In this document: in pieces, positions 25,576-61,288 of the stretch
How the letters are laid out: each line of letters opens with the position of its first letter
Numbering within the stretch: position 1 is the first letter of the stretch
Assembly: GCA_029974835.1 (NCBI GenBank)
Contig: JARKQN010000071.1
Location: 1 to 64,000 of the forward strand
Length of the DNA stretch: 64,000 nt
Reading direction: 5' to 3'
From: Bacteroidales bacterium
Lineage (GTDB): Bacteria > Bacteroidota > Bacteroidia > Bacteroidales > VadinHA17
Notes under the pieces: generated by a model
The model's database searches: none
Seen by the model: the letters and a program-made list of their open reading frames with translations, nothing else
What the model was told of the DNA's origin: nothing
Made by a program: the position numbers and the translations under genes

Positions 25576-25596
25576 TTTACAGATGATAGTGTCAGG

Positions 25597-25604: not shown

Positions 25605-25668
25605 CACAAAATACTTTATAAATTCCATTACCGTGATTCATTAACACAGAAGGAGGATATTTATTGCT

Positions 25669-25676
25669 TATTTTTG
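25669..25676 (+). promoter_or_regulatory. -7 promoter element for rlmH and the histidine kinase
   Basis: TATTTTTG, followed by C, matches the TAnnTTTG consensus and lies 42 bases upstream of the rlmH ATG. No clear -33 TTG. Because the kinase gene overlaps rlmH, this promoter may serve both. Confidence 0.5.
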
Positions 25677-25718
25677 CAGATAACCGGTGTAATTTAAAAA
25701 ATCCGGGGTCTGAATTGT

Positions 25719-26192
25719 ATGAAGATAGTCTTATTGTTTACCGGCAGGACAAGCGGAAAATACCTGGAGGAAGGTATCTCGGACTATTCTCAGCGTATTT
25801 CGAGGATGACGGCTTTTGAAATTGTTACGGTTCAGGGAATAAAAAGCACCCCGGGGATGACACCCGATGAGGTAAAAAGGAGGGAGGGGGTTCAGATACT
25901 GAAACAACTGTCGGGTGAAGATTATGTTGTTTTGCTGGATGAGAGGGGAGAGCAGTCAGGGTCTGTTGCTTTTGCCGCAGAGATTGAAAAAATGATGATG
26001 AAACCCGTAAAAAGGATCGTATTTCTGACCGGAGGGGCTTGGGGAGTGTCGGAAGAGGTTTACAGGAGGGCCGACAAAAAGATATCCCTCTCCAGCATGA
26101 CTTTCTCACACCAGGTGGTACGGTTATTGTTCGCTGAACAGCTATACAGGGCATTAACAATCATAAAGGGTATACCGTATCATCATGGTTAA
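25719..26192 (+). CDS. rlmH: RlmH, 23S rRNA pseudouridine-1915 N3-methyltransferase
   Basis: RlmH methylates pseudouridine 1915 in helix 69 of 23S rRNA using S-adenosylmethionine. The 157-residue SPOUT-fold protein shows YVVLLDERGEQ, the SAM-binding knot FLTGGAWGVSEEV, and the conserved ending SLSSMTFSHQVVRLLFAEQLYRA with IIKGIPYHHG. The length is exactly that of the family. Its stop overlaps the ATG of the next gene by 8 bases. Confidence 0.97.
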   Translation: MKIVLLFTGRTSGKYLEEGISDYSQRISRMTAFEIVTVQGIKSTPGMTPDEVKRREGVQILKQLSGEDYVVLLDERGEQSGSVAFAAEIEKMMMKPVKRIVFLTGGAWGVSEEVYRRADKKISLSSMTFSHQVVRLLFAEQLYRALTIIKGIPYHHG

Positions 26193-29100
26193 AAAACAAG
26201 GGATGACACACCGGAGAAGGAAAATACTGATAACCGCATCAATGCTGTTGGTATTCATTGCGATGGCATTATTTGCCGGTTATCTGTACAACAGCCCTTT
26301 TGAGTATAAATTCCGGACCAAACGGTTTAACAGAATTCTTGAAAGAAAAGAATACCTCACAGGCAAATGTCTGCTTGATCTTAAGGAGAGGCTTGAAAAG
26401 GGAGGGAGCATCGATCAGGAGTCAGGGTCGGGGATCTTTAAAGTTATAAACAGGGAAGGAATAACAATACTTGAATATCTCGACAGGAAACTGGCATACT
26501 GGTCGGATAATTCGTTTGAGGTCCCGGTTGTATACAGCGACACTCTCTTTTCCAAACCGTTCATTTTTATTCACAACGGATGGTTTCTTACTCACAGGAT
26601 AAGATCGGGCCGCGAGACATGGATTGCGCTTCTAAGGGTAAGAAGCGAATACGGATTTGAGAATAAGCTTGTAAGCAACGGTTTTCCGGAGGCATTCAGA
26701 CTTCCGCCGGGTACCGGCCTTGCTCCTCCCGGTTCGACTCCTTATGATATTTCAACCTCGGACGGCCTGAAATTATTTTCCCTTGTCTTTCCGGCCGAAA
26801 GAAAAATATCATTTTTTACTCTGTTCCCTCTTCTGCTATGGACGGCTGCTTTTCTGCTTCTTATTTACCTTGCAGTTCTTTGTGCAGAAGCTTTGGCGGA
26901 TAGAGGCCGTCATCTTCATTCATTTCTTTTTATCCTTGCCTCCCTCTCGCTTATCTATATTCTTATAACCCTGAAAGGCCCCCCCGAGGTACTGAGAAAC
27001 ACAGGCCTGTTCACCGGTTACCAGTTCTCCCTGCCGGTCGTAATACCTTCACTGGGGCATCTGATTGTGCTTAGCGTACTGGTATGTTCACTGTCGTTGT
27101 TTTTTTTCAGGAATATACCGGTTAATGTGTTGCCTGAAGGGGGGAGAAGAATTACCGTTGCCCGTTTTGTTTTCTTACTGGCACCCGGCGCACTCTTTTT
27201 TGCTGTTTACCATTATCTGTTCATAAAAATTGTTTTCGATTCGAATATTGTATTTGAACCTTACCGCCTGCTTGAAGTGTCGTGGTATATGGTTGCAGGT
27301 TATACGGCAATATATCTTCTGGCGGCAGCTCCGGTGCTGTACCTGGTAAAGGTGCTCAGGGAGGTTGCCGCCGTAACCACAGTCACCTCTTTTGCAATCT
27401 CTCTCGGCGTTTCCCTGCTGATAATATTGCCGTTAATGGTTTTTGGCATTAGTCCTTTTTTGCCGGCGCTCTTTTTTTCATTATTCTGCATTACATTGTT
27501 TGCCGCTTACAGAAAGAAGACATCAGGATTCAATATTGCCATCTTTCTTTCGCTGATTTTTTCCATATATGCTCTTTATTTCGTTATTTCGCTCTCCGAC
27601 GAGAAATCTGTTGCACGGAAAAAGGTACTTGCTGTTACATATTCATCCGAGCATGATCCTGAGGCTGAGCATTTGCTGATAAATCTCTGGCCGGCCATTT
27701 CTGCCGACTCCACTCTTGCCGGGATGGTCTCAAAGGATTTGACAACTCAGTGGGAGATTGACTCCATAACATATTACCTGCACAACCGCTATTTCAACGG
27801 ATACTGGGGTAATTTCAGCCTGAGCGTGGTTTCGTGCCGTGATGATTCACCTCTCTGGATTTCATCGGAAGAGAAAATGGTGGATAACTGTTTCGGGTTC
27901 TTCCGCGAAAGAATTGAAAAATACGGCCACAATATTACGGGTACGGGATTTTATTTTCTGGAGGGCCAGGGAGGGAGGTCATACTATATCGGGCAGCTAT
28001 TCTTCGATACCGGCAATGGTTACAGGATGGGTCTCTTCATAGAGCTCTTCAGTGATGTGGATTCTTACCAGGAGGGTTATTCCGAGCTTCTGCTTGATAA
28101 AAAGTACCAGGGTTATTCGCGCCTCAGATATTATTCCTTTGCAAAGTATATAAACGGCAGCAGGGTGCTTCGCACAGGCGATTTCCCGTATGACAAAACC
28201 GATGAAGTTTACATTGACCGTGAATATGACTATCGCGTTTTCAACCGCGAAGGCTACAATCATGTACTGTACAGGAACGGCAACGTGACAGTTGTGATAA
28301 GCAGCAGGAGAGTCTCCTTTACAGATAACCTGATCTCATTTGCTTATATTTTTGCCCTGACGCTTATGGTGGCAGGCATTGCCGGTTTAACGATCGGCAG
28401 GCCGGGGTTGAAGAGCCTTTTCTACCTCAATTTCAGACAGAAACTCCAGATTTCCTTCATCGCCGTACTACTCCTTTCTTTTATATCGGTTGGTGTTATA
28501 GTGGCAATATTCAGTGTAAACCAGTATAAGGCACGGCACCTGGAGAACATCAAGGAGAAGATTACCTCCATTTATACTGAGATTGAGACTACGCTTGCTT
28601 CGGAGCCTGAACTTGCACCCGACTGGAGAGGACCCGCGAACCCATCGCTCAACGAATACCTTATCTCGCTGTCGAATGTCTTCAACACCGACATAAATCT
28701 TTACGACAAGAACGGTTACCTGATGGCCACTTCGCGGCCTGAGGTTTTTTACCGCAATCTGACCAGCAGGCGCCTGAACATGGATGCGTTCAATAACCTT
28801 GAAACCCTCACCAAAAGCGAATATATACAGCGTGAGAGAATAGCGTCCCTTGAATATGTGTCAGCCTACGTGCCCTTTTACAACAGTGAGGGAAATCTGC
28901 TTGCATATCTCAACCTGCCGTATTTCAGGATGCAGAGTGTCCTGACACGGGAGATATCAAACGTAATTGTTGCCGTGGCCAATTTCACGATTCTCATAAT
29001 ACTGATTACCATGGTGCTTGCGGTGGTAATAAGCAGAAGCCTGACGGCGCCCCTCAGCATGCTGAGCGCCGGCCTCGCATCGGTGCAGCTGGGAAGAAGG

Positions 29101-29901
29101 AGCGAACATCTTGTTTACGACGGCAGGGATGAGATAGCCGAGCTTGTAAGCAGATATAACCGAATGGTTGATGAGTTGCAGGAGAGCGCCAGGAGGCTGG
29201 CCGACTCCGAAAGGGAGTTTGCCTGGCGTGAAATGGCCAAGCAGGTGGCTCACGAAATAAAAAACCCGCTCACACCCATGAAGCTGAATGTACAGCAACT
29301 CTTTAAGGCATGGAAAGACAATGTGCCTGATTTTGAAAAAAGACTCGAAAAATTCACCAAAAACCAGATTGAATATATCGAAACCCTCTCTTCGATAGCG
29401 TCGGCCTTTTCATCATTTGCAAAACTGCCTTCACCCTCTCCTTCAGAAATCGACCTTACAGAGCAGATTAAAACAACCCTCGAACTCTTCAGGGACACGG
29501 AAAACATTACATTTACCGCCGGTTGGCCTGAGAAATGCAGAATAATGGTTTATGCCGACAGGGAACACCTGAATGGCATTTTCTCCAACCTGATTAAGAA
29601 CGCAATACAATCTGTACCGCAGGACAGGCACGGCGAGATAAAAATCGGTATCGAGGTAAAATCCGACAGGGCCATAGTATCAGTTGCCGATAACGGAACC
29701 GGGATACCCGATGAACTTAAGGCAAAAATGTTTACACCCAATTTTACAACCAAATCGTCGGGTATGGGCCTCGGACTGTCGATTGTGAAAAGATATGTCG
29801 AATCGGCGGGCGGCCGGGTTTGGTTCGAATCGGAAAAAGACAAAGGTTCTGTGTTTTTTGTGGAACTTCCTGTAAAATTTACCGTAGAAAGGGTTGAATA
29901 A
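26185..29901 (+). CDS. Large multi-membrane sensor histidine kinase (NtrY-like core)
   Basis: This 1238-residue predicted inner-membrane kinase has TM1 at about 15-36, an extracytoplasmic segment (~37-205), and a block of seven or eight hydrophobic helices (~208-470). An extracytoplasmic domain (~470-715), two more helices (~715-777), a third sensor region (~780-925) and a last helix (~926-950) follow. Then come a HAMP-like region and a kinase core with VAHEIKNPLTPMKLNVQQL (phospho-acceptor His1023), an N box near NLIKNAIQS and the G box GMGLGLSIVKRYVESAGG. The WREMAKQVAHEIKNPLTP context is NtrY-like. No response regulator is encoded nearby. It overlaps rlmH by 8 bases; an alternative ATG lies 18 bases downstream. 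Confidence 0.9.
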   Translation: MVKKQGMTHRRRKILITASMLLVFIAMALFAGYLYNSPFEYKFRTKRFNRILERKEYLTGKCLLDLKERLEKGGSIDQESGSGIFKVINREGITILEYLDRKLAYWSDNSFEVPVVYSDTLFSKPFIFIHNGWFLTHRIRSGRETWIALLRVRSEYGFENKLVSNGFPEAFRLPPGTGLAPPGSTPYDISTSDGLKLFSLVFPAERKISFFTLFPLLLWTAAFLLLIYLAVLCAEALADRGRHLHSFLFILASLSLIYILITLKGPPEVLRNTGLFTGYQFSLPVVIPSLGHLIVLSVLVCSLSLFFFRNIPVNVLPEGGRRITVARFVFLLAPGALFFAVYHYLFIKIVFDSNIVFEPYRLLEVSWYMVAGYTAIYLLAAAPVLYLVKVLREVAAVTTVTSFAISLGVSLLIILPLMVFGISPFLPALFFSLFCITLFAAYRKKTSGFNIAIFLSLIFSIYALYFVISLSDEKSVARKKVLAVTYSSEHDPEAEHLLINLWPAISADSTLAGMVSKDLTTQWEIDSITYYLHNRYFNGYWGNFSLSVVSCRDDSPLWISSEEKMVDNCFGFFRERIEKYGHNITGTGFYFLEGQGGRSYYIGQLFFDTGNGYRMGLFIELFSDVDSYQEGYSELLLDKKYQGYSRLRYYSFAKYINGSRVLRTGDFPYDKTDEVYIDREYDYRVFNREGYNHVLYRNGNVTVVISSRRVSFTDNLISFAYIFALTLMVAGIAGLTIGRPGLKSLFYLNFRQKLQISFIAVLLLSFISVGVIVAIFSVNQYKARHLENIKEKITSIYTEIETTLASEPELAPDWRGPANPSLNEYLISLSNVFNTDINLYDKNGYLMATSRPEVFYRNLTSRRLNMDAFNNLETLTKSEYIQRERIASLEYVSAYVPFYNSEGNLLAYLNLPYFRMQSVLTREISNVIVAVANFTILIILITMVLAVVISRSLTAPLSMLSAGLASVQLGRRSEHLVYDGRDEIAELVSRYNRMVDELQESARRLADSEREFAWREMAKQVAHEIKNPLTPMKLNVQQLFKAWKDNVPDFEKRLEKFTKNQIEYIETLSSIASAFSSFAKLPSPSPSEIDLTEQIKTTLELFRDTENITFTAGWPEKCRIMVYADREHLNGIFSNLIKNAIQSVPQDRHGEIKIGIEVKSDRAIVSVADNGTGIPDELKAKMFTPNFTTKSSGMGLGLSIVKRYVESAGGRVWFESEKDKGSVFFVELPVKFTVERVE

Positions 29902-29977
29902 GGTTTGAAACAGGTTAAAACCATTTTCTGAACTTGTTCAAATATTTTTTTAATTTAGCAACTCAGAAATCTGGAAA

Positions 29978-32900
29978 ATGTCAGGAAGGGCCCCGGTCTA
30001 TAAAAATATTGCATTCCTCATAACCCTCTTTCTGCTTTGCGGCGCTGAAGCTGCCGCACAGAAGAATCTTTCCGGGAACCTCGGGATGCCCTTCGCACGC
30101 GTTATTACCATTGGGACCGACAGGGTTACGGTTGACGATGTAACAGGCTTTAATGTTGCCGGAGGGGATACAATACTGTTAATTCAGATGCAGGGTGTGA
30201 AGGTGCAGGTGGCTCCGCTGTTCGGAAGTCTTCAGGATAAATACGGAGAACCGGGCCTGTGGGAATTCCTCATTACCCAGTCGGTAAACACCGGCACAAA
30301 GGAAATTATTTTCAGAAATAATCTGAAAAACTCCTATGATACAAAGGGCAACATACAGATTGTCAAAGTCCCCTTTTACAACAGCGCCAATGTAACAGGA
30401 ACACTGACTGTTGACGGATGGGATCCGGTAAGCAAAAAAGGAGGTATACTTGCACTTATTATCGGACGTACCCTCAGATTATCAGCCGATATTAACCTTG
30501 CGGGAAAAGGTTTCACCGGAGGCAATGATACAATCGGAGACGGAATATGCCGTGCCCTGGATGAATTAATCTATGGAAAAGATTATTATTCAAGGGCATT
30601 TACCAATGCAGGCTTTAAGGGAGAGGGTGCAGCCAATTACACCGAGTTTAATTCTTTACTCGACCCAGGTTACATTAAAGGTTTCGGGCCCGCATTTAAT
30701 GGTGGCGGCGGCGGTAACGGAAGATATTCCGGCGGTGGCGGCGGCGGTAACAGAGGAACAGGCGGAGCCGGAGGTGACGAGGATGCGTCGTGCGGTGCAC
30801 CCCGCGAGGGAGCCTCGGGAGGCCTTAAGGCCGAATACTTTCCTTCAATGATAGACCGACTGTTTCTCGGAGGCGGCGGTGGGGCATCCACAAGGGCCTC
30901 TTCAGGCGGAACAACAGGACCGGGCGGAAACGGTGGAGGAATAGTAATCATCATTGCCGACTCACTGCTGGGTAACGGGGGAAATATTATCGTATCAGGT
31001 AATCCGGGTTCCGATGCCACAGGAAATGCAGGCGCCGGCGGAGGCGGTGCGGGAGGCTCAGTCGCACTTTCGGTAAGCAATTACGGATCTTTACCTTATT
31101 CCATTATTGCTCAGGGTGGAAAAGGCGGCGACAGAGCTGCCGGTATCGGGGGCGAAGGCGGCGGCGGCGGTGGTGGACTTCTTTGGGTGAGCAATGATAT
31201 TACCGCCAACATTACTTTCAACGCCGCAGGGGGTATTACCGGTACTTCCCTCAGCCCAAACGCGACTCCCGGACAACCGGGCGATAAGAAACTGAGTTTC
31301 AAGGCCAACCTCAACGGCTTCCTGTTTAATTCAATCAGGTCATCAGTTACCGGAAACCAGGTTGACTCCGTTTGCTCAAACATGATTCCTCCTAAGATCA
31401 CCGGTACCATACCTGTCGGTGGCACCGAGCCTTACTCCTACCTGTGGGAGAAAAGCTACGACGAGGTTACCTGGACTCCGGTGGCCACAGGTACCGTAAA
31501 TTACCAACCGCCGGCTGCCGAAGCCGCTACAGTATGGTTCAGGAGAACGGTAACCGATTCATCGATCCCCACACCGCTGGTCGACGTGAGCAAACCGGTG
31601 AAGATTATCGTGCAGCCATTCATTAAAAACAACATAGTCGGCACATCCGACACAATATGCTTTGCCCAGGATCCCCCGACTTTCACCTCAAAGGCTCTCC
31701 TGCAGGACGGTAACGGCATCTACTCGTTCAGGTGGCAGGTAAGCACCGACAATGCACTTTTCTCTCTTCCGGTCAACACCTATAACACCGAATCCTATAC
31801 TCCTCCTCCGGCCCTGCAGGTTACTTCATGGTACCGCCGAACAGTCATTTCCGGCCGTTGCATTGATTCGTCGGCAATTGTAAAGATAACTGTACTCGAC
31901 ACCATAAAAAACAATAGCATAATCTCTCCTGCCGAGGAGATATGTTACGGAATGACATTTGCAAACCTCACTGCCACCACGGCACCCGTGCTTGCAGGTG
32001 GCGACGGCACCTACAGGTATAAATGGCAGGGCAGTTCCGACGGATCTCTCTGGAACGATGCTCCGGGCGTAATAAATAATGCGGGTTATAACCCGGACGA
32101 GAGCTCTCCCGTCTTCCCCGGATTCCAGTATTTCAGGAGGATCGTTTATTCGGGAAGCAATGATGTATGTGAAAACCTGAGCCATCCGGTCAAGCTTACG
32201 GCCTGGCCGGTTATAGGCAACAATACCATATCAGCCGGTCAGACAATCTGCTCCGGAAGCCTTCCTGCACCCCTTACGGGAACAACACCTGTTAACGGAA
32301 ACGGTGTTTATACTTACCTGTGGCAGGCCAGAACTAAATCCACATCCTGGTCAAATGCCCCGGGCCCCAACCCCGTCGACCAGGTGAATTATGTTCCTCC
32401 GTCACTGACCGACACCACCTGGTTCAGGAGGGTCGTCACGTCCTCAGCCTGCAGCGATACAAGCAACATTATTGTGATAAATGTTCACAGGCCAGTAATA
32501 AACAATAACATACAGCTGCTTTCTGGCATCACCGACACAACCATCTGCAGTGGTGCCACGCCGAAGCTCTTTTCAGGTAGTCTGCCTGCGGGCGGCACGG
32601 AAATACCGGGCGACTATGCATACATGTGGGAGACATCCCTGGATGAGTTCAGCGGATACTCCGGCATAGCCGGTGGCACAGGCAGGGATTACCAGAGCGG
32701 GCCTCTGGTCAACGGAACCTCTTCACCCGTAACACACTATTTCAGGCGCACGGTAACCTCAGGGCTCTGCAGCTCGGTAAGCGCACAGTTAATAAAGGTG
32801 ACGGTTCTTCCTTCCATAACGAACAATGTAATTACACCTGACAAGACAGCAGTATGCTATAACTCATCACCTGTCATTTCCGGAACGGCTCTTACAGGCG

Positions 32901-34183
32901 GCGCCGGAGGTACTCCAACCTGGCTCTGGATACAGAGTGCTACAGGCGCAGCACCATGGACCCCGGCAGCAGGAACCAACGATCAGCAGAACTACACCCC
33001 GCCGGCAATGACTGTACCTATGCATTTCAGGAGAGTGATTCTGTCAGGCCCGGCAAACTGCTGCATCGATACATCAAATGCGGTCAGTATTTCTATTAAC
33101 CCGTTGCCCACCGGACAGATAACAACAATTACCGATACCACGGTGTGCGGTGGTTCACCGGTTCCGTTGAAAATCCACCTTACCGGAACATCAAAATGGA
33201 ACGTGGTTTACACCGAGAACGGGACCCAGGTTACCCTGAACGGGATATTAAATGCCGATACGACCATATTGATAAGTAAATCACCTGCAACCGCATCGGC
33301 AACATATAATTATGCTCTCTTCGGGGTTACCGACAGGAACGGATGCCAGGCAACCTCACTCGCCGGAACCCGGAAGATCGATGTTTATAAAGTCCCGGTC
33401 GCCAATGCCGGGCCCGATGCCTCTGTCTGCGGCCCCCGTTACACACTTGGTGCAGTGCCCAGCGTTGGCACGGGCGTATGGTCATACCCGGGAGATGTTG
33501 TATCAGTAACTGCACCGGGTCCGGTAATGACGGTCGCAATAGACTCGCTAACCATGCCTGCATCCGTAATAAAGAGATTTTTCTGGGAAGAAACCAACTG
33601 GACATGCAAGTCGAAAGACTCGGTTGATATCACATTCTATAAGCGAACGGGCATTGTCAACGCGGGCCCCGACCGTGACCTTTACACGTTTGATTATGTT
33701 GACACTCTTCATGCAGCCAAACCTCTGGTAGGAACAGGCTCGTGGTCGGTTCTGGGAGGAGGGGCAGTGATTGTAAATGATTCCATCGCCACACAGCTGT
33801 CGCCCGGGCAAAACAGGTTTGAATGGAAAGTGGTGAACGGAAGCTGTGAATCGAAGGATGAAATTATCATAAATGTTTACGGGCTGATCGTTCCTGAAGG
33901 ATTCTCGCCTAACGGCGACGGGATAAATGATGAGTTTGTCATACAGGGTCTTGACCTGAATTTCAATGAATGCACCCTTAATATACTGAACAGCGCAGGC
34001 TCTGAAGTTTACCGGACAACAAACACCGGAGGAAAAACATGGCAGAACTGGAACGGCGAAAGTAACGGGAAAACGGTGCCCGAAGGTACATATTATTACC
34101 TGCTTACAATAAAATCGCTGAGAAACGGAACGATATTCAGGAAAAGCGGATTTATTTTACTTAAAAGATATAATCTGGATTAA
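29978..34183 (+). CDS. Type IX secreted, gliding motility-associated C-terminal (CHU_C) surface protein
   Basis: This 1401-residue exported protein has a signal peptide ending near AEAAAQ (residue ~28) and an N-terminal beta-rich domain (30-230). A Gly-rich low-complexity segment follows (~238-405, many GGGGG and GGAGG runs). Six tandem Ig-like repeats of about 85-100 residues come next (~470-1045), each with a Y-x-Y-x-W core, a YxPP motif, an FRR strand and a Cys pair. Two further Ig-like modules (~1045-1300) lead to the CHU_C domain (~1302-1401) with GFSPNGDGINDEF and GTYYYLLTIK. CHU_C is a type B sorting signal of the type IX secretion system. The likely role is an adhesin or cell-surface structural protein. 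PorP/SprF follows 32 bases downstream. Confidence 0.9.
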   Translation: MSGRAPVYKNIAFLITLFLLCGAEAAAQKNLSGNLGMPFARVITIGTDRVTVDDVTGFNVAGGDTILLIQMQGVKVQVAPLFGSLQDKYGEPGLWEFLITQSVNTGTKEIIFRNNLKNSYDTKGNIQIVKVPFYNSANVTGTLTVDGWDPVSKKGGILALIIGRTLRLSADINLAGKGFTGGNDTIGDGICRALDELIYGKDYYSRAFTNAGFKGEGAANYTEFNSLLDPGYIKGFGPAFNGGGGGNGRYSGGGGGGNRGTGGAGGDEDASCGAPREGASGGLKAEYFPSMIDRLFLGGGGGASTRASSGGTTGPGGNGGGIVIIIADSLLGNGGNIIVSGNPGSDATGNAGAGGGGAGGSVALSVSNYGSLPYSIIAQGGKGGDRAAGIGGEGGGGGGGLLWVSNDITANITFNAAGGITGTSLSPNATPGQPGDKKLSFKANLNGFLFNSIRSSVTGNQVDSVCSNMIPPKITGTIPVGGTEPYSYLWEKSYDEVTWTPVATGTVNYQPPAAEAATVWFRRTVTDSSIPTPLVDVSKPVKIIVQPFIKNNIVGTSDTICFAQDPPTFTSKALLQDGNGIYSFRWQVSTDNALFSLPVNTYNTESYTPPPALQVTSWYRRTVISGRCIDSSAIVKITVLDTIKNNSIISPAEEICYGMTFANLTATTAPVLAGGDGTYRYKWQGSSDGSLWNDAPGVINNAGYNPDESSPVFPGFQYFRRIVYSGSNDVCENLSHPVKLTAWPVIGNNTISAGQTICSGSLPAPLTGTTPVNGNGVYTYLWQARTKSTSWSNAPGPNPVDQVNYVPPSLTDTTWFRRVVTSSACSDTSNIIVINVHRPVINNNIQLLSGITDTTICSGATPKLFSGSLPAGGTEIPGDYAYMWETSLDEFSGYSGIAGGTGRDYQSGPLVNGTSSPVTHYFRRTVTSGLCSSVSAQLIKVTVLPSITNNVITPDKTAVCYNSSPVISGTALTGGAGGTPTWLWIQSATGAAPWTPAAGTNDQQNYTPPAMTVPMHFRRVILSGPANCCIDTSNAVSISINPLPTGQITTITDTTVCGGSPVPLKIHLTGTSKWNVVYTENGTQVTLNGILNADTTILISKSPATASATYNYALFGVTDRNGCQATSLAGTRKIDVYKVPVANAGPDASVCGPRYTLGAVPSVGTGVWSYPGDVVSVTAPGPVMTVAIDSLTMPASVIKRFFWEETNWTCKSKDSVDITFYKRTGIVNAGPDRDLYTFDYVDTLHAAKPLVGTGSWSVLGGGAVIVNDSIATQLSPGQNRFEWKVVNGSCESKDEIIINVYGLIVPEGFSPNGDGINDEFVIQGLDLNFNECTLNILNSAGSEVYRTTNTGGKTWQNWNGESNGKTVPEGTYYYLLTIKSLRNGTIFRKSGFILLKRYNLD

Positions 34184-34215
34184 ATAAGGAGAATGGGCTA
34201 AAGACTGACGAGAGA

Positions 34216-35172
34216 ATGGGAAGAAAGCTGGTACTGTTATTTATTATGAATTTTGCCTTGTTTAACCTGCGGGCGCAGAACGGCAGCGGCGATCCCACAC
34301 GCCTGAGCCTTGTTTACCCTGTTTACAGCCAGTACCTGCATAACGGGCTCCTTATCAACCCTGCCTATGCCGGCACGCGCGAAGCACTGAGCTTCTTCGC
34401 CTCCGGAAGGATGCAGTGGTGGGGAATAAAAGGGGCTCCGGTATCCGAAACAGTGTCGCTTCACACTCTGCTTAAAAACAACAAGGTCGGGCTTGGAGCT
34501 TCGGGCCAGTTTTTCAGGTATGGCTTTTCGAAGGCAACAAGCGTTTACACCGACTATGCTTACCACATAATGCTCGGCAAAGGCAGACTCTCAATGGGGC
34601 TGAGGGCGGGGTTCGATATGTCCAATACCGACTATGCCGGCATTATTCTTATTGATCCAAACGATCCGGCTTTTATGTCAAACGATAAACCTTATATCCT
34701 GCCCAACGTCGGATCAGGCATTTATTATTCATCAAAAAGGTTTTTTGCGGGCGTGGCAGTGCCTTCATTTCTCAGTTATCTGAAGAGCAGCTCAGGGGAA
34801 GTAACCTTCGACACTTTCACCGATTTCGACCTGCTGGCGACCGCCGGTGCCCTTATCTCTTTTTCAAAAGCCTTCAGATTCAAACCTTCGGTATTTATTG
34901 ATTATCCTCTTAACAGTCCGGGAGGCATGAGGCTGGATGTTAACGGCAATTTCATTTTCTATGACTTCCTTTGGCTGGGCGCCTCGTGGAGAACATACGA
35001 AGAGGTGGCTGTGGGAATACTGCAGTTACAGATAACTCCCCAGTTGATGCTGGGTTATTCGTACGACTATCCCACCGGAAAACTAAGCACCTACTCAAAA
35101 GGTTCTCATGAGATAATATTAAGATATGAATTCGGCTACAAGGTGTCAGCCGCTAACCCTCGATATTTCTGA
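34216..35172 (+). CDS. PorP/SprF family type IX secretion outer-membrane protein
   Basis: This 318-residue protein has a signal peptide (to about residue 21) followed by a beta-barrel pattern. The family hallmark is PVYSQYLHNGLLINPAYAGTREALS at about residues 35-60, and it ends in aromatic strands (EIILRYEFGYKV). PorP/SprF proteins are usually encoded just after a CHU_C-bearing substrate. They act at the outer membrane in type IX secretion or surface attachment of that partner, so the neighbour at 29978 is the obvious client. The next gene starts 2 bases after the stop. Confidence 0.93.
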   Translation: MGRKLVLLFIMNFALFNLRAQNGSGDPTRLSLVYPVYSQYLHNGLLINPAYAGTREALSFFASGRMQWWGIKGAPVSETVSLHTLLKNNKVGLGASGQFFRYGFSKATSVYTDYAYHIMLGKGRLSMGLRAGFDMSNTDYAGIILIDPNDPAFMSNDKPYILPNVGSGIYYSSKRFFAGVAVPSFLSYLKSSSGEVTFDTFTDFDLLATAGALISFSKAFRFKPSVFIDYPLNSPGGMRLDVNGNFIFYDFLWLGASWRTYEEVAVGILQLQITPQLMLGYSYDYPTGKLSTYSKGSHEIILRYEFGYKVSAANPRYF

Positions 35173-35174
35173 GT

Positions 35175-36623
35175 ATGAGAGTGACAGGCCGACATATCGC
35201 AATACTGGCAATGGCATTTATATGGCAGATCTCACCTGTCCCGGCTCAGACGTCGGTATACCAGACTAAAAGGATGCCATTCAACAGTCCCGTTTTTAAC
35301 GACATTGCCCCGGTAATTGTTAAGAATGGTGTTCTGTTCTGTTCCGACCGCCGCAACAACAGTGCTGCAAACGTTACCACCTTTGAAGATGAACGTCTCT
35401 ACAACCTCTATTTTGCCGAGCGGAGAGATTCATCACGGTGGAAACAGCCTGTTGCCGTTAAAACAGCCGGTTCCGATCTGCTTTTATACGGCCCTGTTAC
35501 GGTTGCAGCCGACGGGAAAACGATTTATTTTACAAGCAATGTCATTTCGGGGAAAGCTGCAAAAAAAAGAAATGTTAAAAACCGCCTTGGCATTTTCTCC
35601 GGTACTCTCGAAGGAAATATTTTAAGCAATGTGAAACCGTTTGACTATAACAGCACCGAATACAGCGTTGCACATCCTTCAGTAAGCAGAGACGGTAAAT
35701 ACCTGTTCTTCGCATCCGATATGCCTGGCGGACAGGGGGGATCTGATATCTATTATTGTGAATTTGTTAACAATGCATGGAGCTCACCAAAAAATCTTGG
35801 CAGCAAGGTAAATTCTCCGGCAAAGGAAAATTATCCTTTTATCCATCCTTCGGGCAGACTCTATTTTTCATCAGACCGTCCTGCAGAAGTGCCGGGTCTC
35901 GGAGGAATGAATATTTATTACACTTCACTTGTCTTTGGAGAGTGGGATGATCCGTTACTGATGCCCGAACCTGTCAATTCCGCTTCGGATGATTTTGCCT
36001 TTGTAATAGCAGACGACCTCAGGGAGGGTTTTTTCACAAGGAAATCCGGCAGGTATGACGATATCTGGATGATGTCGTCGGCTATCATAAGAAAACAGGA
36101 ATGCCCTCCTTCAGTACGTGAAACTTTCTGTTATGAGTTTTTTGATGAAAATGCGGTAAAATTTGATACAATGCCTGTGCCATTCAAATTCAGATGGAGC
36201 TTCGGGGATGGTGAGACAGGCGAGGGGGTTACCGTTCAGCACTGCTTTAAAAGCCCGGGGACCTATGTTGTCAGGCTTGATATTATTAACCTTCTGACCA
36301 ATGAGGTTGAACAGAACCAGAAGAGCTATACTCTTGAGATAGAAAGGACTGAACAGGCATACATATCGGGCCCCGATAAATGTTTTGAGGGAGAAAAAGT
36401 GGTGTTTGACGCCGACAGTACATGGCTCCCGGGATGGTCAATAAATCAGTTCTACTGGAACTTTGACGATGAGACGATAGCAATAGGCACGAAAGTTGAG
36501 AAGATGTTTGCAAGACCGGGCAGTTATAACATACAGCTCATTGTAAATTCCGCTCCTGATGCCAGCGGCAGAACCAAAGAGATATGTGTTTCGAAAAATG
36601 TGGCAGTTATCCGGAAGCAGTAA
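35175..36623 (+). CDS. Exported PD40-repeat and PKD-domain protein
   Basis: This 482-residue protein has a signal peptide (to about PVPAQ, residue 25). About four PD40/WD40-like beta-propeller blades (~30-300) follow, recognisable by repeats such as DGKYLFFASDMPGGQGGSDIYY and SGRLYFSSDRPAEVPGLGG. Two PKD-type Ig domains (~320-480) come next, with FRWSFGDGETGEG and FYWNFDDETIA. Such proteins resemble PorE-like envelope components but lack the OmpA-type peptidoglycan-binding domain, so that identity is not supported. It lies 2 bases after PorP/SprF and is surely cotranscribed. Confidence 0.82.
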   Translation: MRVTGRHIAILAMAFIWQISPVPAQTSVYQTKRMPFNSPVFNDIAPVIVKNGVLFCSDRRNNSAANVTTFEDERLYNLYFAERRDSSRWKQPVAVKTAGSDLLLYGPVTVAADGKTIYFTSNVISGKAAKKRNVKNRLGIFSGTLEGNILSNVKPFDYNSTEYSVAHPSVSRDGKYLFFASDMPGGQGGSDIYYCEFVNNAWSSPKNLGSKVNSPAKENYPFIHPSGRLYFSSDRPAEVPGLGGMNIYYTSLVFGEWDDPLLMPEPVNSASDDFAFVIADDLREGFFTRKSGRYDDIWMMSSAIIRKQECPPSVRETFCYEFFDENAVKFDTMPVPFKFRWSFGDGETGEGVTVQHCFKSPGTYVVRLDIINLLTNEVEQNQKSYTLEIERTEQAYISGPDKCFEGEKVVFDADSTWLPGWSINQFYWNFDDETIAIGTKVEKMFARPGSYNIQLIVNSAPDASGRTKEICVSKNVAVIRKQ

Positions 36624-36643
36624 ATGAATTTAAGTATTTTTGA

Positions 36644-37642
36644 ATGATGATATTTCTGAAAAAAATAATATATACCTGTCTGATAACGATACTGTTCCTG
36701 ATGTCAGGAAGGGATGTGATCTATTCACAGGCCGTGCCGGGGCAGGATGAGAATATACAATTTCTGGTTACCTTCGGAAAACAGGGCGAAACATCGTGGG
36801 GGGATGATGATTTTTCCCAGACATGGTTTTTTGCCGTCCCGAAAGATTTCAAGGGACGTTTCTATATCAGGGTTTTTGATCCGGATGCCGGAGGGGAGAA
36901 CGATGAACAGAAGGGCGAATGGGATTCACGGACTCTCTTCTCGGTCTATGGGGGCAAAGGTGTCGACCCTGAGGTGAATGACGATTCGAGGGGAATTCAG
37001 CCAACCGGACAATATAAAAGCGGTACTCTTCTGGCTTCAAGAACTTTCGGCAGTGAAAGACAATACGACAACAAGTATTACTCATTCGGACCCTTCAACC
37101 CCGCCGAAGGAGATTACAGCGAAAAATGGGGCTATATATTTAAGGTTATCGCCGACGGTGTGAGCGGGGATGACGGAAACCTTTACAGATATTTCCTTTC
37201 CCGCGAACCAAATGCAGACGTACCCATCGAGGGAGCCAATGCTTTCACTTATGAGTATACTTTCAGAATGTGGAATAATACGAAAAGCATATCTCATATA
37301 TACCCTTTCATTGATGAAGGCGTGGTTTACGTTAAGCAGAAAAACTTCGACTGGGACGATGATGGAACAATACTGGTTGTCTCAAGGGTGAGAAAAGGTA
37401 TCACGGTGCCGATTTCATCTGAAAATGACTGGGCTGAATCGCGCATACGGGTCGAACCTGCAGAGATAAACTCTTCCCTCGATTTCCAGTTTCATAAAAA
37501 ACAGGAATTCCTCGTGCGGAATAACAATGTGGTTATTTCACTGGAAAACCAGAGAGGTGATAACCTGAAGTTCTTCAGTGCACCCATAGGCGGGGTGCCT
37601 GTTTATGATCCCAAAATCGGCGTCCGTCAGATAGGCAAGTGA
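36644..37642 (+). CDS. Exported beta-rich protein of unknown family
   Basis: I do not recognise this family. The 332-residue protein has an N-terminal signal peptide (residues 1 to ~28, ending IYSQA) and no further membrane segment. The rest is rich in Asp, Gly and aromatic residues, with predicted beta strands such as GRFYIRVFDPDAGGENDE (about 73-90) and a likely Ca-binding-like acidic stretch FDWDDDGTILVVSRV (about 243-257). It starts 20 bases after the PD40-PKD gene, and its stop overlaps the GTG start of the propeller-phosphatase gene by 4 bases. It is therefore part of the same operon and may be translationally coupled to the phosphatase. Confidence 0.72.
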   Translation: MMIFLKKIIYTCLITILFLMSGRDVIYSQAVPGQDENIQFLVTFGKQGETSWGDDDFSQTWFFAVPKDFKGRFYIRVFDPDAGGENDEQKGEWDSRTLFSVYGGKGVDPEVNDDSRGIQPTGQYKSGTLLASRTFGSERQYDNKYYSFGPFNPAEGDYSEKWGYIFKVIADGVSGDDGNLYRYFLSREPNADVPIEGANAFTYEYTFRMWNNTKSISHIYPFIDEGVVYVKQKNFDWDDDGTILVVSRVRKGITVPISSENDWAESRIRVEPAEINSSLDFQFHKKQEFLVRNNNVVISLENQRGDNLKFFSAPIGGVPVYDPKIGVRQIGK

Positions 37643-40600
37643 TAAAGAAGATCTATAACATAAAGAATCATGCAGGCAGGAAAGGAGCATTGCTCCTCCT
37701 GGTACTCTTATCTTCCGTTATTAATGCCCAGACATTCAACTTCAGAAATTTCGGAACAGGGAGCGGCATCCCCGATACTTACATTTATTCAATCAGTCAG
37801 GATGCAAAAGGGTTCCTCTGGATATCTACAGGGAACGGACTTGCCAGATTTGACGGATTCAGTTTTCATCCCGTACCTTTCCCCGACAATATTGATACAA
37901 GATATTCCACCACCCTGTTTCGTGACAGTCACGGCCGGATATGGAGCGGCTGCAACGACGGCTCTCTTTTCTATTCAAATGGCAATGAACTGTTAAAAGT
38001 CAGGGATCTAGGAGTACAGAGCATTAACCAGATTTTTGAATCGGATAACGGATATATTTTCATAATACCACAGGAAAAGTACATTATAAGGATAAACCCC
38101 GAACGACCTGATGATGTGGTTTGGTACCCCACTAAACAGGGAATAATTCTGACATCGGCAGCATTTACGGATAATAACGATCTGCTTGTTGGTACCATGG
38201 AAAATCTTCTGCTTTGCAGGCTGGAGGATGATTCCCTTAAAGTTACAGAGCAGGTTAAGGGTATTGAATATACAAAAGTCCAGTCGATACTCCGTTTACA
38301 AAACAGTAACAGATATCTGGTTGGAACAGAAGGATCAGGATTGTACATTCTTGAATTCAGGGGCAAGGCCCCGGTGCTGCAAAGGATAAGTTCGGGCATG
38401 CTGCCTGAAGACCTTGATATAAGGGCAATGATGGAATCAAAAGACGGTTCTGTCTGGCTCTCGACGATGGGAAAAGGAATGATAAAGTTGTCATTAAGGG
38501 ATGGCTCACCGGTGCCGGAATCAGTTATTAAGTTTGACACGGAGGGTGGTTTGCAGGGAAATGATGTCAGATGCTCATTCCAGGATGATGAAGGTAATTT
38601 ATGGGCAGGGCTCTATGGTGAAGGCATATCACTTCTCGTTTCAGAAGCTACATGGTTTGTGGCTCCCGGAGTCCATCCCGAAAGTAACAATATAATCTAT
38701 ATACGCCCGTCAGGCAAAGAATACTTTATCGGTACTCCGACAGGATATTTCAACTATTCTCCTTATGATTCAAAGTCGGATAAATTCAATGATCTGAGCC
38801 GGAAAATTGACAGCGAAGTCTCGGCGTACCTTTACGAAAACGGTGAAATCTACGCGGGAACAAAAGGGAAAGGAATCTACCTCGTAAACAGGTTCGGTCA
38901 GGTCAGGCAATTTTTCATTTCAGAAAATTCAGGCAGAAATTACATCAGGCACATTAATTCGGATAAGGAGTTACTGTGGGTTTCAACTCTTGAGGGGGTT
39001 GTTGTACTAAACAAAAAGGATGGCCGTCTGGCAGCAAAATTCAATATTGATGAAAGGCTTCCCCATAACAGTATAAACCAGGTAATTATTCTGAATGATG
39101 GCAGGGCGCTTGTGGCCACCGAGTGTGACCGGCTTTACAGAATTTCCATGGAAAGCGGCGTTTCCGTAGGCAGAAGGGTTATGTCAGGAACCAACAGGAA
39201 TAAGGTGCTTTGCTATGCCCAGGACGAAAAAGGCGATATATGGGCCGGCACGGAAGGTAATGGAATATTTTGGTTCACAGGTGATTCACTGCTGAGGTTT
39301 ACAGTCGCCAACGGACTTTTTTCAAATTACTGCTACAGCATCTTTGCCGACAGCAGGGGAAAAATTTGGATCGGCCACGAAAGGGGATATTCAATGATTG
39401 ATCCGGTAAACGGACGGGTAAGGTCATTCTCTACAGGCTTTGCCCGCAACGGAAACTGCAACCCCTTTGCCATCGCCGAAGACCCGGAAGGCAGGGTTAT
39501 CATCGGAACCACAGAGGGTTTTGTAATTTACGACAGGTCGAAGGAATACGAAAAAGATATAATTCCCCGGACTTCGATCACAGGGGTTACCATTAATAAT
39601 GTTAAATACCCCCTGCGCGATGAATATAATCTGCCGTTCGGCAGGTATACAATAAAAATAGACTATGTGGGGATATGTTTATCTGATCCCGGAAGTGTAT
39701 TGTATTCGACGAAGATGGAAAACTGGGATGAAAGATGGTCAGAACCCGGCACTGAAAGGCAGATACCTTATACCCTGAGCGACGGCAGTTACAGGTTTCT
39801 GGTTAAGTCATTTAACAGCAGGGGCCAGACAGATAATGTGGCTTCGGCAATTGAATTCAAAATAAGGACTCCGTTCTGGAGAACCTGGTGGTTCATACTT
39901 GCAGGTGTGCTGACAATATCGGCAATAGTATATTTAATCCTGAAACAAAGGGAAAGAGCTCAGGCCCGGCAGAAGAAATATCTTGAAGATGAACTTGACA
40001 AACGAACCAGTGAGGTTGTAAGGCAGAAGGAGGAGATAGAACAGCAGAACCTCGAAATTACCGACAGTATCAACTATGCGAAAAGAATTCAGGCAAGCAT
40101 TCTTCCCGATACCCACAAGCTCAAAGAGGTTTTCTCGGATGCGTTTGTAATATTTCACCCCAGAGACATTGTAAGCGGCGACTTTTACTGGTTCGACAGA
40201 CTGGATGAAAAGAGATTCATGGTCGTGTGCGCGGACTCCACAGGGCACGGCGTTCCCGGGGCATTTATGTCAATGATAGGTTCAACCCTGCTCCAGGACA
40301 TAATCTCAAGAAAAGGTATTACAAAACCGTCACAGATACTCACTCTGCTCGACAAACAGATCATCTCAACACTTAACCAGAATGTAGATATAGGTGTTTC
40401 AAATGACGGTATGGATATGGTGGTTTGTGAAATAAACATCCCCGACCGTCATTTGAGGTTCGCTTCGGCCATGAGACCGGTTATTATCGTAATGGGAGGA
40501 GAATCGTACTATATAAAAGGCAACAGGTGCTCTGTCGGTGGCGAGTCGGTAATTGAAAAGTTTTTTGACGACCAGGAGTACTACCTGGGGAAGGGGGACA

Positions 40601-40809
40601 GCATTTATATGTTTTCCGACGGATTTCCGGACCAGTTTGGCGGAGTGGACGGTAAAAAGATGAAAATAGCCAGGCTGAAAACACTTATTGAAGACGTTCA
40701 GCACCTTCCGATGGAACAGCAGAAAGAAATCATAGATAAATTCTTCTTCGAGTGGAAAGGGACCTATGAACAGGTGGATGATGTTCTTATGATGGGTCTG
40801 AAGTTCTAA
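37639..40809 (+). CDS. Two-component-regulator-type propeller with SpoIIE (PP2C) phosphatase domain
   Basis: This 1056-residue transmembrane protein starts at GTG. A signal peptide (to ~31) precedes a periplasmic double propeller of Reg_prop repeats (~32-650; e.g. ISQDAKGFLWISTGNGLARFDG) and a Y_Y_Y-type domain (~680-745). One transmembrane helix (~751-770), a coiled coil (~775-815) and a cytoplasmic SpoIIE/PP2C domain (~830-1056) follow. The phosphatase has GDFYWF, VVCADSTGHGVPGAFMS with metal-binding Asp, YMFSDGFPDQFGG, and the final DDVLMMGL. It could sense an extracytoplasmic ligand and dephosphorylate a Ser/Thr-phosphorylated regulator. No anti-sigma partner is encoded beside it. It overlaps the previous gene by 4 bases and the convergent lipoprotein gene by 4. 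Confidence 0.9.
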   Translation: MIKKIYNIKNHAGRKGALLLLVLLSSVINAQTFNFRNFGTGSGIPDTYIYSISQDAKGFLWISTGNGLARFDGFSFHPVPFPDNIDTRYSTTLFRDSHGRIWSGCNDGSLFYSNGNELLKVRDLGVQSINQIFESDNGYIFIIPQEKYIIRINPERPDDVVWYPTKQGIILTSAAFTDNNDLLVGTMENLLLCRLEDDSLKVTEQVKGIEYTKVQSILRLQNSNRYLVGTEGSGLYILEFRGKAPVLQRISSGMLPEDLDIRAMMESKDGSVWLSTMGKGMIKLSLRDGSPVPESVIKFDTEGGLQGNDVRCSFQDDEGNLWAGLYGEGISLLVSEATWFVAPGVHPESNNIIYIRPSGKEYFIGTPTGYFNYSPYDSKSDKFNDLSRKIDSEVSAYLYENGEIYAGTKGKGIYLVNRFGQVRQFFISENSGRNYIRHINSDKELLWVSTLEGVVVLNKKDGRLAAKFNIDERLPHNSINQVIILNDGRALVATECDRLYRISMESGVSVGRRVMSGTNRNKVLCYAQDEKGDIWAGTEGNGIFWFTGDSLLRFTVANGLFSNYCYSIFADSRGKIWIGHERGYSMIDPVNGRVRSFSTGFARNGNCNPFAIAEDPEGRVIIGTTEGFVIYDRSKEYEKDIIPRTSITGVTINNVKYPLRDEYNLPFGRYTIKIDYVGICLSDPGSVLYSTKMENWDERWSEPGTERQIPYTLSDGSYRFLVKSFNSRGQTDNVASAIEFKIRTPFWRTWWFILAGVLTISAIVYLILKQRERAQARQKKYLEDELDKRTSEVVRQKEEIEQQNLEITDSINYAKRIQASILPDTHKLKEVFSDAFVIFHPRDIVSGDFYWFDRLDEKRFMVVCADSTGHGVPGAFMSMIGSTLLQDIISRKGITKPSQILTLLDKQIISTLNQNVDIGVSNDGMDMVVCEINIPDRHLRFASAMRPVIIVMGGESYYIKGNRCSVGGESVIEKFFDDQEYYLGKGDSIYMFSDGFPDQFGGVDGKKMKIARLKTLIEDVQHLPMEQQKEIIDKFFFEWKGTYEQVDDVLMMGLKF

Positions 40810-41333
40810 CTGCCGTCTTTACTGCACCGGCCGTTGCTGCCGAGTACAATTTCACATGTTCTTTCCGTGTTGCTCTCGTTTCCGGCCCTGTCTTTTACAT
40901 AAAAATCATAATAAATGGTATCGGCAGGTGTAGCAAAGAAATAAATAAAAGTCAGCTTTACCGTTCCCCTCAGTATCTTGTTCTGCCCGCTTCGTTCCAT
41001 ATACGGAATCCTGTAACCTGAAGGACGGAGAGGATCGTCGGCAGGAGCCGGCACAATGTCACCCCCCGATTTTCTTAACAACGTAAGGAAAAGGTTTACG
41101 CTATCACCTCCCGCAAGAGTGCCTGAAGGACTCAGTCCAAGGTCGCCGTCGCCATCCTCAAAGTAGAAAAAAAGCCGGCCTCCCTTTGAAAGATTACCGA
41201 GTATGTCCACCGTATCAAATACCTCGAAGCTCCTGAACTCTATTGAAGGCTCTGGCGGAAGCTTCTCTATTTTTTTACATGAACCTGCTATCAACAGAGC
41301 GAACAGAAATATCGTGATTTGTCTGATGGTCAT
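40806..41333 (-). CDS. Small predicted lipoprotein of unknown function
   Basis: This 175-residue protein has a lipoprotein signal (FLFALLIAGSC, Cys at residue 19). The mature part is a single beta-rich, probably Ig-like domain with an acidic EDGDGDLGLSPSG loop (~58-70), which resembles calcium-binding loops, and ends in VKDRAGNESNTERTCEIVLG. I know of no assigned function. It lies downstream of der on the same strand with 43 bases between, and could be the last gene of a rluB-era-der transcript. Confidence 0.72.
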   Translation of the reverse strand: MTIRQITIFLFALLIAGSCKKIEKLPPEPSIEFRSFEVFDTVDILGNLSKGGRLFFYFEDGDGDLGLSPSGTLAGGDSVNLFLTLLRKSGGDIVPAPADDPLRPSGYRIPYMERSGQNKILRGTVKLTFIYFFATPADTIYYDFYVKDRAGNESNTERTCEIVLGSNGRCSKDGS

Positions 41334-41376
41334 ATCCGTGTTTTAGTTTCCTGCCTCAAAAACCAAACCAAAGTAA

Positions 41377-42678
41377 TTATTTTTTTCTGAAAAATATTTT
41401 GACGGGAACACCTTTCAGGTCAAAGTTTTCTCTAAGCCTGTTCTCGAGGTAACGCTTATACGGCTCCCTTATATACTGCGGCAGGTTGCAGAAGAAGGCA
41501 AAAGAGGGTGCCAGGGTGGGCAACTGGGTTACATATTTTATTTTTATATGTTTTCCTTTAACGGCAGGAGGAGGATAAGAATTTATTGCTTCAAGCATCA
41601 CCTCGTTCAGTCTGGATGTTGCTATCTTCCTTTTCCTGTTTTCATTGACACTGTAAACAAGGTCGAGTATCCTGTGTATTCTCTGTTTGCTTAAAGCGGA
41701 GATGAACAGAATATCGTAGTCGGTAAATGGCAAGGTGCGTCTCCTGATCTCTTCGCTGAAAATTTTTACCGAATGAGTGTCCTTTTCGACAAGGTCCCAT
41801 TTGTTTACAAGTACAATTACCCCCTTGCTGTTGCGCTGTATGAGAGAAAAAATATTTATATCCTGGGCTTCAATGCCTCTTGTGGCATCAATCATAAGCA
41901 GACACACGTCGGAGTGCTCGATTGCCTTTATGGCCCTCATCACCGAGTAAAACTCAATGCTGTCATCTATCCTGGCTTTTTTTCTTATACCTGCAGTGTC
42001 AACAAGAAGAAAACTGTGATTATACTTTTTATATAATGTATAAATCGAATCTCTTGTAGTACCTGCCAGAGGTGTCACAATGTTTCTCTCCTCGCCAAGC
42101 AGAGAATTTAAAAGTGATGATTTTCCGACGTTCGGCCGTCCGACAATGGCAACTCTTGGCAAATCGTCATTTTCCTCTTCCGCGGATGGAGGAAGCGATT
42201 TTACGATATCGTCAAGAAGGTCGCCGGTGCCCGAACCGTTTATGCTGCTAATTGGGAAAGGATCACCAAGTCCAAGGGTATAAAATTCATGAATCCCTGC
42301 AAGGCGCTCGTTATTGTCAACTTTGTTTACTGTCAGAAACACCTTTTTGGATGATCTCCGCAGCAGGTTGGCCACCTCCTTATCAAGTTCGTGCACTCCT
42401 GTGGTGACATCGGTAAGAAAAATAATTGCATCAGCCTCATCTATGGCAAGAGCAACCTGCCTGTTGATCTCCTCTTCAAATATGTCTTCGGAATCTTCCA
42501 CGTAACCCCCGGTATCGATTACAGAAAAGGTTACGCCGTTCCATTCAGATTTTCCGTAATTTCTGTCTCTTGTTACGCCGCTTACTTCATCAACAATGGC
42601 TTCTCTTGTACCGGTTAACCTGTTAAACAGGGTTGATTTACCGACATTCGGCCGTCCGACAATTGCTATAATACTCAC
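41377..42678 (-). CDS. der: Der (EngA), double-GTPase ribosome assembly factor
   Basis: Der is an essential 50S assembly GTPase with two tandem G domains. The 433-residue protein has GRPNVGKST at residues 8-16 and GRPNVGKSS at 180-188, with DTGG and DTAG switch motifs. NKVD (about 118) and NKWD (about 300) give guanine specificity, and the C-terminal KH-like domain covers ~350-433 ([20 protein letters not shown]). It begins 10 bases after era and is likely cotranscribed with it. Confidence 0.97.
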
Positions 42679-61269: not shown

Positions 61270-61288
61270 GTTGCAAAGATAATAAAAT

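Follow-up and report, generated by a model that had tools for sequence, protein, structure and literature searches.

A conserved five-gene operon of Bacteroidales combining a type B adhesin, its PorP/SprF partner and a putative propeller sensor phosphatase

The genomic window considered here comprises 64,000 nucleotides of contig JARKQN010000071.1 from a Bacteroidales bacterium of the VadinHA17 lineage (assembly GCA_029974835.1). Five consecutive open reading frames (ORFs) on its + strand encode an adhesin-like protein with a type B sorting domain, a PorP/SprF-family protein, a PD40-PKD protein, an exported protein of no family, designated U4, and a protein in which a propeller sensor is joined to a SpoIIE phosphatase. 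The gaps between the genes are 32, 2 and 20 bases, and the U4 and phosphatase genes overlap by 4 bases. The five genes almost certainly constitute one conserved functional unit, an operon. An earlier note, made from the sequence alone, had described five co-directional genes of these families with these gaps; its coordinates are exact, Pfam and NCBIfam agree with it, and gene 4 belongs to no family. Loci (L), genomes (G), contigs (C) and families (f) are given below by our own numbers.

29978..34183, + strand: secreted adhesin-like protein, 1401 residues, with AgmC-like N-terminus, Ig-like repeats (by reading) and C-terminal CHU_C
33887..34159, + strand: type B sorting domain of the adhesin, residues 1304-1394 (PF13585)
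34216..35172, + strand: PorP/SprF-family outer-membrane partner (PF11751, 1.2e-60, 205.9 bits; TIGR03519 above cut-off)
35175..36623, + strand: protein with PD40 propeller and two PKD domains (PD40 3.7e-16, Pfam)
36644..37642, + strand: U4, exported protein of 332 residues of no Pfam or NCBIfam family, predicted double beta-sandwich
37639..40809, + strand: propeller/Y_Y_Y/transmembrane/SiaA-type SpoIIE phosphatase, 1056 residues, GTG start
37729..39864, + strand: periplasmic sensor part of the phosphatase, residues 31-742 (Reg_prop 9.9e-30, Y_Y_Y 1.2e-7, Pfam)
39874..39942, + strand: single transmembrane helix, about residues 746-768, by reading of the translation
40204..40803, + strand: SpoIIE/PP2C catalytic domain (SpoIIE 5.2e-18, 66.1 bits, Pfam)

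The five genes and their products

The adhesin-like protein matches CHU_C in Pfam (4.7e-20, 71.9 bits, cut-off 27) and TIGR04131 (41.0 bits, cut-off 35), as well as AgmC_N at 157.2 bits, under the cut-off of 275. The SprA translocon is encoded in the same genome on another contig (PF14349, 617.3 bits), and the protein thus has the features of a type B substrate of type IX secretion, namely a sorting domain and SprA in the genome. The PD40-PKD protein resembles NCBIfam PorE at 149.8 bits, under the cut-off of 600. In Porphyromonas gingivalis, PG1035, a type B protein, is complexed with PorP, to which it is bound, and with PorE, which attaches to peptidoglycan (PMC9143113); Flavobacterium johnsoniae possesses five operons in which PorE-like, type B and SprF-like genes are combined (PMC12618676). 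The trio of the window has the same three parts (type B cargo, PorP-like barrel and PD40 PorE-like protein) and resembles the PorE-PorP-type B complex, with a PorE-like protein that appears shortened: unlike PorE, it gave no TPR or OmpA match in the Pfam search. Its counterparts in L152 and L048 bear a C-terminal OmpA domain. Compared with both of these systems, the operon of the window adds U4 and a transmembrane sensor phosphatase. The genome contains seven PorP matches, and neither U4 nor a SpoIIE gene was found with the operon's own profiles in the stretches read around the other six.

The N-terminus of U4 reads like a signal peptide without a lipobox cysteine, and U4 matches no Pfam or NCBIfam family and no sorting domain. 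Its conservation is high, with 83 invariant columns across 14 sequences. The AlphaFold2 model consists of two beta-sandwich domains with a confidence score (pLDDT) of 91.5. The best match of a structure search was weak (Z 5.7, root-mean-square deviation 3.1, 112 of 332 residues aligned), the best Foldseek row had a TM value of 0.22, and the sequence gave nothing better than E 0.31 against PDB. Several fold candidates were considered, i.e. SIDT1/2, carbohydrate-binding and CUB domains, and, from Foldseek, PNGase F and peptidylglycine monooxygenase; all share a weak double-beta-sandwich likeness with U4, and none was trusted.

In the fifth protein, all four metal-binding aspartates of the catalytic domain (Asp 848, 866, 994 and 1048) are present, Asp 848 lying just ahead of the Pfam match, and they are retained in 112-113 of the 113 U4-linked rows. 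Residues 777-1056 match PDB 6k4e, a "putative serine phosphatase" which we take to be the SiaA domain, at 2.8e-31. The top NCBIfam match is SiaA (176.7 bits over residues 779-1056, short of the cut-off of 700), followed by PorZ (52.7 bits in the propeller part, cut-off 260) and RssB (38.3). The sensor half matches the hybrid two-component sensor of PDB 4a2l at 7.2e-40, and the hybrid sensor of PDB 3v9f was matched as well. By sequence, the catalytic domain is predicted to be of the SiaA kind, and the sensor different from that of SiaA. Hybrid two-component systems such as that of PDB 4a2l have the same extracytoplasmic half and membrane crossing as gene 5, but their output is a kinase, receiver and regulator, whereas gene 5 ends in a SpoIIE phosphatase, the kinase form being seen just in the paralogous locus L214. 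PorZ, of the type IX attachment complex, has a propeller similar to that of gene 5 at a score under the PorZ cut-off; unlike PorZ, gene 5 has no CHU_C or TIGR04131 match and possesses a transmembrane helix (by reading) and a phosphatase.

At L214 the adhesin, PorP, PD40 and U4 genes are followed by a gene encoding a propeller-Y_Y_Y-HisKA-HATPase_c protein and by a lone receiver gene, and the propeller nests within the U4-linked clade in a quick tree. Since this locus swaps the cytosolic domain and keeps everything outside, the propeller is an input domain, as judged from this one locus. A single-pass sensor fused to a PP2C domain is a supported prediction for gene 5. To that extent the earlier proposal of an envelope sensor reporting to a cytosolic phospho-target stands; its other part, the control of type IX secretion, gained no support, as discussed below.

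Conservation of the block and the U4-sensor pair

The U4 gene was used as a marker, and loci were annotated with profiles built from the proteins of the operon itself. Besides the window, 126 distinct U4 loci were counted (20 from L031-L050, 67 from L051-L130, 39 from L152 and L177-L214); loci with identical U4 were dropped, and L001-L030, L131-L142, L163-L176 and L222-L246 belong to sets outside this count. The five-gene order, which the earlier note had proposed to look for in other genomes, is complete in 98 of the 126 loci, including the kinase-output L214 and loci with genes split into two ORFs. Among the remaining 28, 23 end within the stretch read on one or both sides, and five (L048, L182, L194, L203 and L206) depart from the order. 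The end-limited loci include L184, in which three other genes occupy the place of the trio (3.4 kb visible upstream), and L049, which has the same parts in a changed order. U4 and the phosphatase occur without the trio in L184, L194 and L203. Median gaps between the five genes in the relatives are 1, 2, 25 and 11 nt, and the propeller gene lies within 60 nt 3' of U4 in 123 of 125 cases. L048 and L049 are paralogous loci with reshuffled parts, L048 having two PorP and two CHU_C genes.

U4 is present in 37 of 60 relatives and in 41 of 294 genomes drawn from the order, where it is spread over 15 family labels. It was found in 12 of 392 genomes of the phylum, free-standing in two (the window's own and G104) and within larger ORFs in ten (one match weak, E 2.4e-4). 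A set of 80 named loci, the best of at least 384, carries Bacteroidota titles, nearly all being uncultured Bacteroidales or Bacteroidetes assemblies. In L153-L162, from other classes, ORFs of up to about 1650 residues have U4 as their N-terminal part. The fusion of L153 lies near genes of a receiver-SpoIIE protein, a dCache kinase, a cyclase and a FecR-LysM protein, and that of L154 near receiver-SpoIIE and STAS genes. A U4-PD40 label given to these fusions proved to be a profile artefact, NCBIfam assigning PKD-type repeats in L153, the one tested.

The view that the five genes are merely co-inherited within a stable chromosomal neighbourhood, without a functional link, is very improbable and already largely refuted: the histidine kinase gene upstream and the der and Era-type genes downstream are also retained in many loci, but the block is kept in other families that lack these flanks, in paralogous reshuffled loci and with overlapping genes, and the phosphatase clade is marked by U4. 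The setting with the upstream kinase and downstream der is found in the window's family and several others; four loci of family f87 (L178, L190, L199 and L209) show no rlmH, kinase or der within their 19-kb stretches, and L152, from another family of the class, shows none in its visible part.

Within the operon, the only terminator-like site near the phosphatase gene (37580-37598) is located inside the 3' end of U4. A consensus scan of positions 25000-42000 gave 31 promoter-like sites against 23.1 expected from shuffles and 24 terminator-like sites against 18.3. A promoter or terminator dividing the phosphatase from the other genes was rejected, since the 4-base overlap leaves no gap and the scan barely exceeds the shuffles; the phosphatase is built into the operon, as had been suggested.

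The closest association is that of U4 with the sensor phosphatase. Of the 44 top phosphatase matches in the order-wide set of 294 genomes, 43 lie directly 3' of a U4 gene, as against none of the next 16 rows. When U4 places were compared with the first 60 phosphatase rows listed, five of 48 had no partner among those rows: G646 and G468:C129 (both reaching the contig end), G469:C64 (fragment), G473 (propeller ORF split) and G042:C22, which is the kinase form of L214. On a quick tree of 107 sensor halves, U4 linkage needs three label changes versus 21.0 in shuffles; within the U4 clade a single row, L049, lacks the linkage, its U4 gene being on the other side. The U4-sensor pair is, as far as such comparisons indicate, the core of the module.

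Outside this clade the picture differs. Three other propeller-SpoIIE copies of the genome are on contigs C17, C12 and C65, and no PorP or CHU_C was found with the operon's own profiles at these copies or in 20 further propeller-SpoIIE stretches. The earlier note had held that homologous phosphatases lying mostly away from type IX genes would speak against its idea; this is what the wide family shows, and not what the U4-linked subclade shows, where the trio is usually present too. The nearest U4-free propeller phosphatases include the C17 copy and those of 17 loci of the order (L222-L238). Immediately 5' of the phosphatase, 11 of these 17 loci and the C17 locus encode a TPR protein of 780-807 residues (782 in the window's own genome), which makes a second conserved pair, unlinked to U4 (L149:5760-11297 on C17, L222-L228, L231, L233, L235 and L237). 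The TPR protein of this genome has a caspase-domain match, and the three relatives tested match TPR alone.

Several points weigh against the model proposed below or limit the counts. Part of the synteny is vertical inheritance, because the best 80 loci are mostly near relatives. At L081, a true exception, U4 is followed by a DUF5916 protein. The phosphatase searches scored two candidates per genome in the 294-genome set and four elsewhere, and the numbers of other propeller phosphatases are lower bounds. Over the 44 loci with all eight genes, distance correlations give the U4-propeller pair no special coupling: the best pair is PorP-PD40 (0.73). Given Der, U4 correlates at 0.57 with the propeller versus 0.46-0.51 with the other parts, but the correlations of the propeller with each of the other parts (0.59-0.66) all exceed that with U4. 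The mean distance is 1.31 for the propeller versus 0.55 for U4, so the propeller evolves much faster.

The candidate cytosolic target

The five-gene operon itself encodes no cytosolic target. A SiaC-type phosphoprotein is preferred over a STAS protein as the predicted target, because SiaB-SiaC genes are linked to propeller phosphatases in relatives, the genome has its own SiaB and a SiaC with threonine 68, and the type of phosphatase matches the type of neighbour. A SiaB-family kinase gene (L245:1483-2043, above cut-off) adjoins a SiaC gene (L245:1088-1465, 160.9 bits) at G000:C88. This SiaC carries threonine at position 68 in an NTSS context and is over the Pfam cut-off; as NCBIfam equivalog it reaches 100.2 bits versus a cut-off of 150. 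In Pseudomonas aeruginosa, the SiaC phosphosite peptide includes T68, which the NTSS of the present SiaC matches (PMC7647112), and phosphorylation of T68 blocks the binding of SiaC to SiaD (PMC8457831). The SiaABC(D) switch of P. aeruginosa has in common with the present genome a SiaA-type PP2C, SiaB and a T68 SiaC; the input in the window differs, being a periplasmic propeller, and SiaB and SiaC are encoded outside the operon.

In three loci (L226, L237 and L239) a propeller phosphatase gene is followed immediately by SiaB-SiaC genes, the gaps being 36, 6 and 43 nt. At L240 SiaB and SiaC genes are located 5' of four SpoIIE genes, and at L235 they are about 5 kb off, the SiaC of this locus being without the threonine. 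At L206, the PD40, U4 and phosphatase genes are preceded on the same strand by two intact SiaC genes, the nearer at 127 nt, and by a short third ORF. With a SiaA-type profile, the phosphatases next to SiaB-SiaC in L226, L237 and L239 score 203-216, and those next to RsbW-like or STAS genes in L241 and L154 score 43 and 49.

The assignment to SiaC has to be set against a number of points. The genome contains 11 SpoIIE genes, and eight of nine tested match the SiaA model. Its SiaB-SiaC pair is on a contig other than that of the window, and a second SiaC-family protein (L143:3337-3756 on C91, 83.6 bits) is present. The phosphatases of L226, L237 and L239 fall outside the U4 clade. SiaC genes occur near a U4 operon in one locus only, L206, the phosphatase of which is a long, badly placed branch outside the U4 clade.

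The alternative, close to the STAS or anti-sigma target suggested earlier, is that the phosphatase has a STAS anti-sigma antagonist as its target, together with an RsbW-like kinase, in a general stress-type switch. The genome indeed encodes one RsbW-like kinase (C96, L215:4175-4579, 89.5 bits) and STAS proteins (three matches, one confirmed at L245:7548-7886), an RsbW-like gene stands behind the propeller-SpoIIE gene of L241, and the STAS gene of L154 stands beside the receiver-SpoIIE gene of a U4-fusion locus. The phosphatases of L241 and L154 are, however, of another type, scoring 114.8 and 129.6 with Pfam SpoIIE, against 66.1 for that of the window. A better partner for RsbW/STAS is available in a 408-residue SpoIIE protein of C91 (127.7 bits with Pfam, no SiaA match at E 1e-10), and no STAS or RsbW-like gene was found by single-sequence search in the U4-clade loci examined. 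A switch of this kind is, therefore, improbable, and less likely than one acting on a SiaC-type phosphoprotein.

Two further arrangements were observed. At L241:7743-11337 the RsbW-like gene lies 7 nt 3' of a propeller-SpoIIE gene of the other type, in a mirror of the SiaB-SiaC loci. At L148:9457-11400, on contig C91 of the same genome, a SpoIIE phosphatase is fused to a YfiR-like domain (DUF4154).

Chromosomal setting and proposed role

Two features precede the operon:

26185..29901, + strand: sensor histidine kinase, 1238 residues (HAMP, HATPase_c, Pfam), 76 nt 5' of the adhesin gene
29951..29958, + strand: promoter-like box TAATTTAG upstream of the operon, weak

A TTAG-type box 5' of the adhesin gene is retained in the window as well as in L051, L052 and L074, which are close relatives, while much of the remaining gap diverges. 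We take the TAATTTAG box to resemble the -7 element of Bacteroidota, and the TTAG-type box is a weak candidate for a transcription start upstream of the adhesin gene. The kinase gene is found immediately 5' of the adhesin gene in 21 of 31 distinct loci (those showing more than 10.5 kb upstream and more than 4.5 kb downstream), with a median gap of 71.5 nt (64 loci). It is syntenic in part of the relatives and probably lies outside the operon transcript. The N-terminal part of the kinase, about 900 residues, has no domain assignment. Downstream, the genes are convergent to the operon: 40806-41333 (no family), der and an Era-type GTPase with a KH domain. Far from the operon, G+C drops from about 0.45 to 0.32-0.38 in the stretch 56000-64000, which carries genes of a serine recombinase (56548-58290), a phage-type integrase (60338-60925) and a DUF2130 protein; a mobile element is likely there. 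Ahead of it, a DUF2400 gene (55986-56588) matches just the first 148 of 225 profile positions.

The operon may be regarded as two joined modules, an adhesin complex (genes 1-3) and a sensing arm (genes 4 and 5). The CHU_C protein would leave the cell by type IX secretion and be held at the surface by the PorP/SprF barrel, with the PorE-like PD40-PKD protein as the periplasmic side of the complex. U4 might act in the periplasm as the partner of the propeller/Y_Y_Y domain; this sensor domain would signal via one transmembrane helix and a coiled linker to the SiaA-type PP2C phosphatase in the cytosol. If U4 changed, or if the adhesin complex did as it is assembled, loaded or engaged, this could alter the phosphatase, which would then strip from a SiaC-type protein the phosphate set on its threonine 68 by a SiaB-type kinase; SiaC without the phosphate might in turn bind an effector, with a possible effect on the adhesin. 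For the chain as a whole, from the adhesin complex and U4 through the propeller sensor and phosphatase to SiaC, the chances appear about even. More tentatively, and with somewhat less than an even chance, the system may be a transenvelope feedback in which U4 and the propeller read the type B adhesin complex and report through SiaC dephosphorylation, separately from PorXY-SigP and with an interchangeable output (phosphatase or histidine kinase).

It is also possible, though less likely, that the sensor reads an outside ligand, such as a polysaccharide fragment, with U4 as a ligand-binding helper and the adhesin trio as the output switched on, so that nothing of type IX secretion is watched. 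Hybrid two-component sensors with propeller and Y_Y_Y domains read glycans, and the similarity of the sensor half to those of PDB 4a2l and 3v9f fits this possibility, as do the weak likeness of the U4 beta-sandwich to carbohydrate-binding and CUB-like domains and the loci with U4 and sensor but no trio. The conservation of U4 is, however, unusually high for a ligand-specific receptor, most loci contain the trio, the parts of which reappear reordered in L048 and L049, and none of the five genes matches a glycan-degrading family in Pfam.

In the reading of the operon as an adhesin complex watched by a sensing arm, regulation of type IX secretion as such, proposed in the earlier note, is not supported: SprA occurs in 277 of the 294 order genomes, whether or not they carry the module, and at three loci U4 and the sensor stand without the trio. 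All 41 U4 genomes have SprA, which says little because SprA is so common in the order anyway. To our knowledge, the known type IX regulators act on the secretion apparatus. The operon shares with PorXY-SigP control a signalling system tied to type IX genes; unlike it, the five genes include no PorX, PorY or SigP part, and the phosphatase family and predicted phospho-target are different.

In the literature, subscription papers not covered, nothing was found that joins SpoIIE with type IX secretion and PorP, type IX secretion with a partner switch, or SpoIIE with a two-component regulator propeller in Bacteroidetes; a search for SpoIIE, Bacteroidetes and gliding returned just a selenium paper. 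A term search of a review of type IX secretion system effectors (PMC10202324) gave no SpoIIE, propeller or PorX. In a LolA/LolB paper that mentions SiaC along with type IX secretion, the name reportedly denotes a sialidase. The parts are of known kinds, except for U4, and the combination of a propeller sensor, a SiaA-type output and a type B adhesin operon was not found in that literature.

The operon bears on the means by which Bacteroidota detect that their type IX surface adhesins are assembled or in use. It is a compact and conserved case in which a cargo and its anchor are tied to a new family of periplasmic proteins and to a sensor whose enzymatic output is defined, and threonine 68 of SiaC is a substrate that can be put to the test. 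It also provides a first context for U4, a family without a Pfam or NCBIfam match here, members of which form the N-terminal part of large proteins in other classes. If the proposed feedback line is true, it would represent a control route for cell-surface structures apart from PorXY-SigP.

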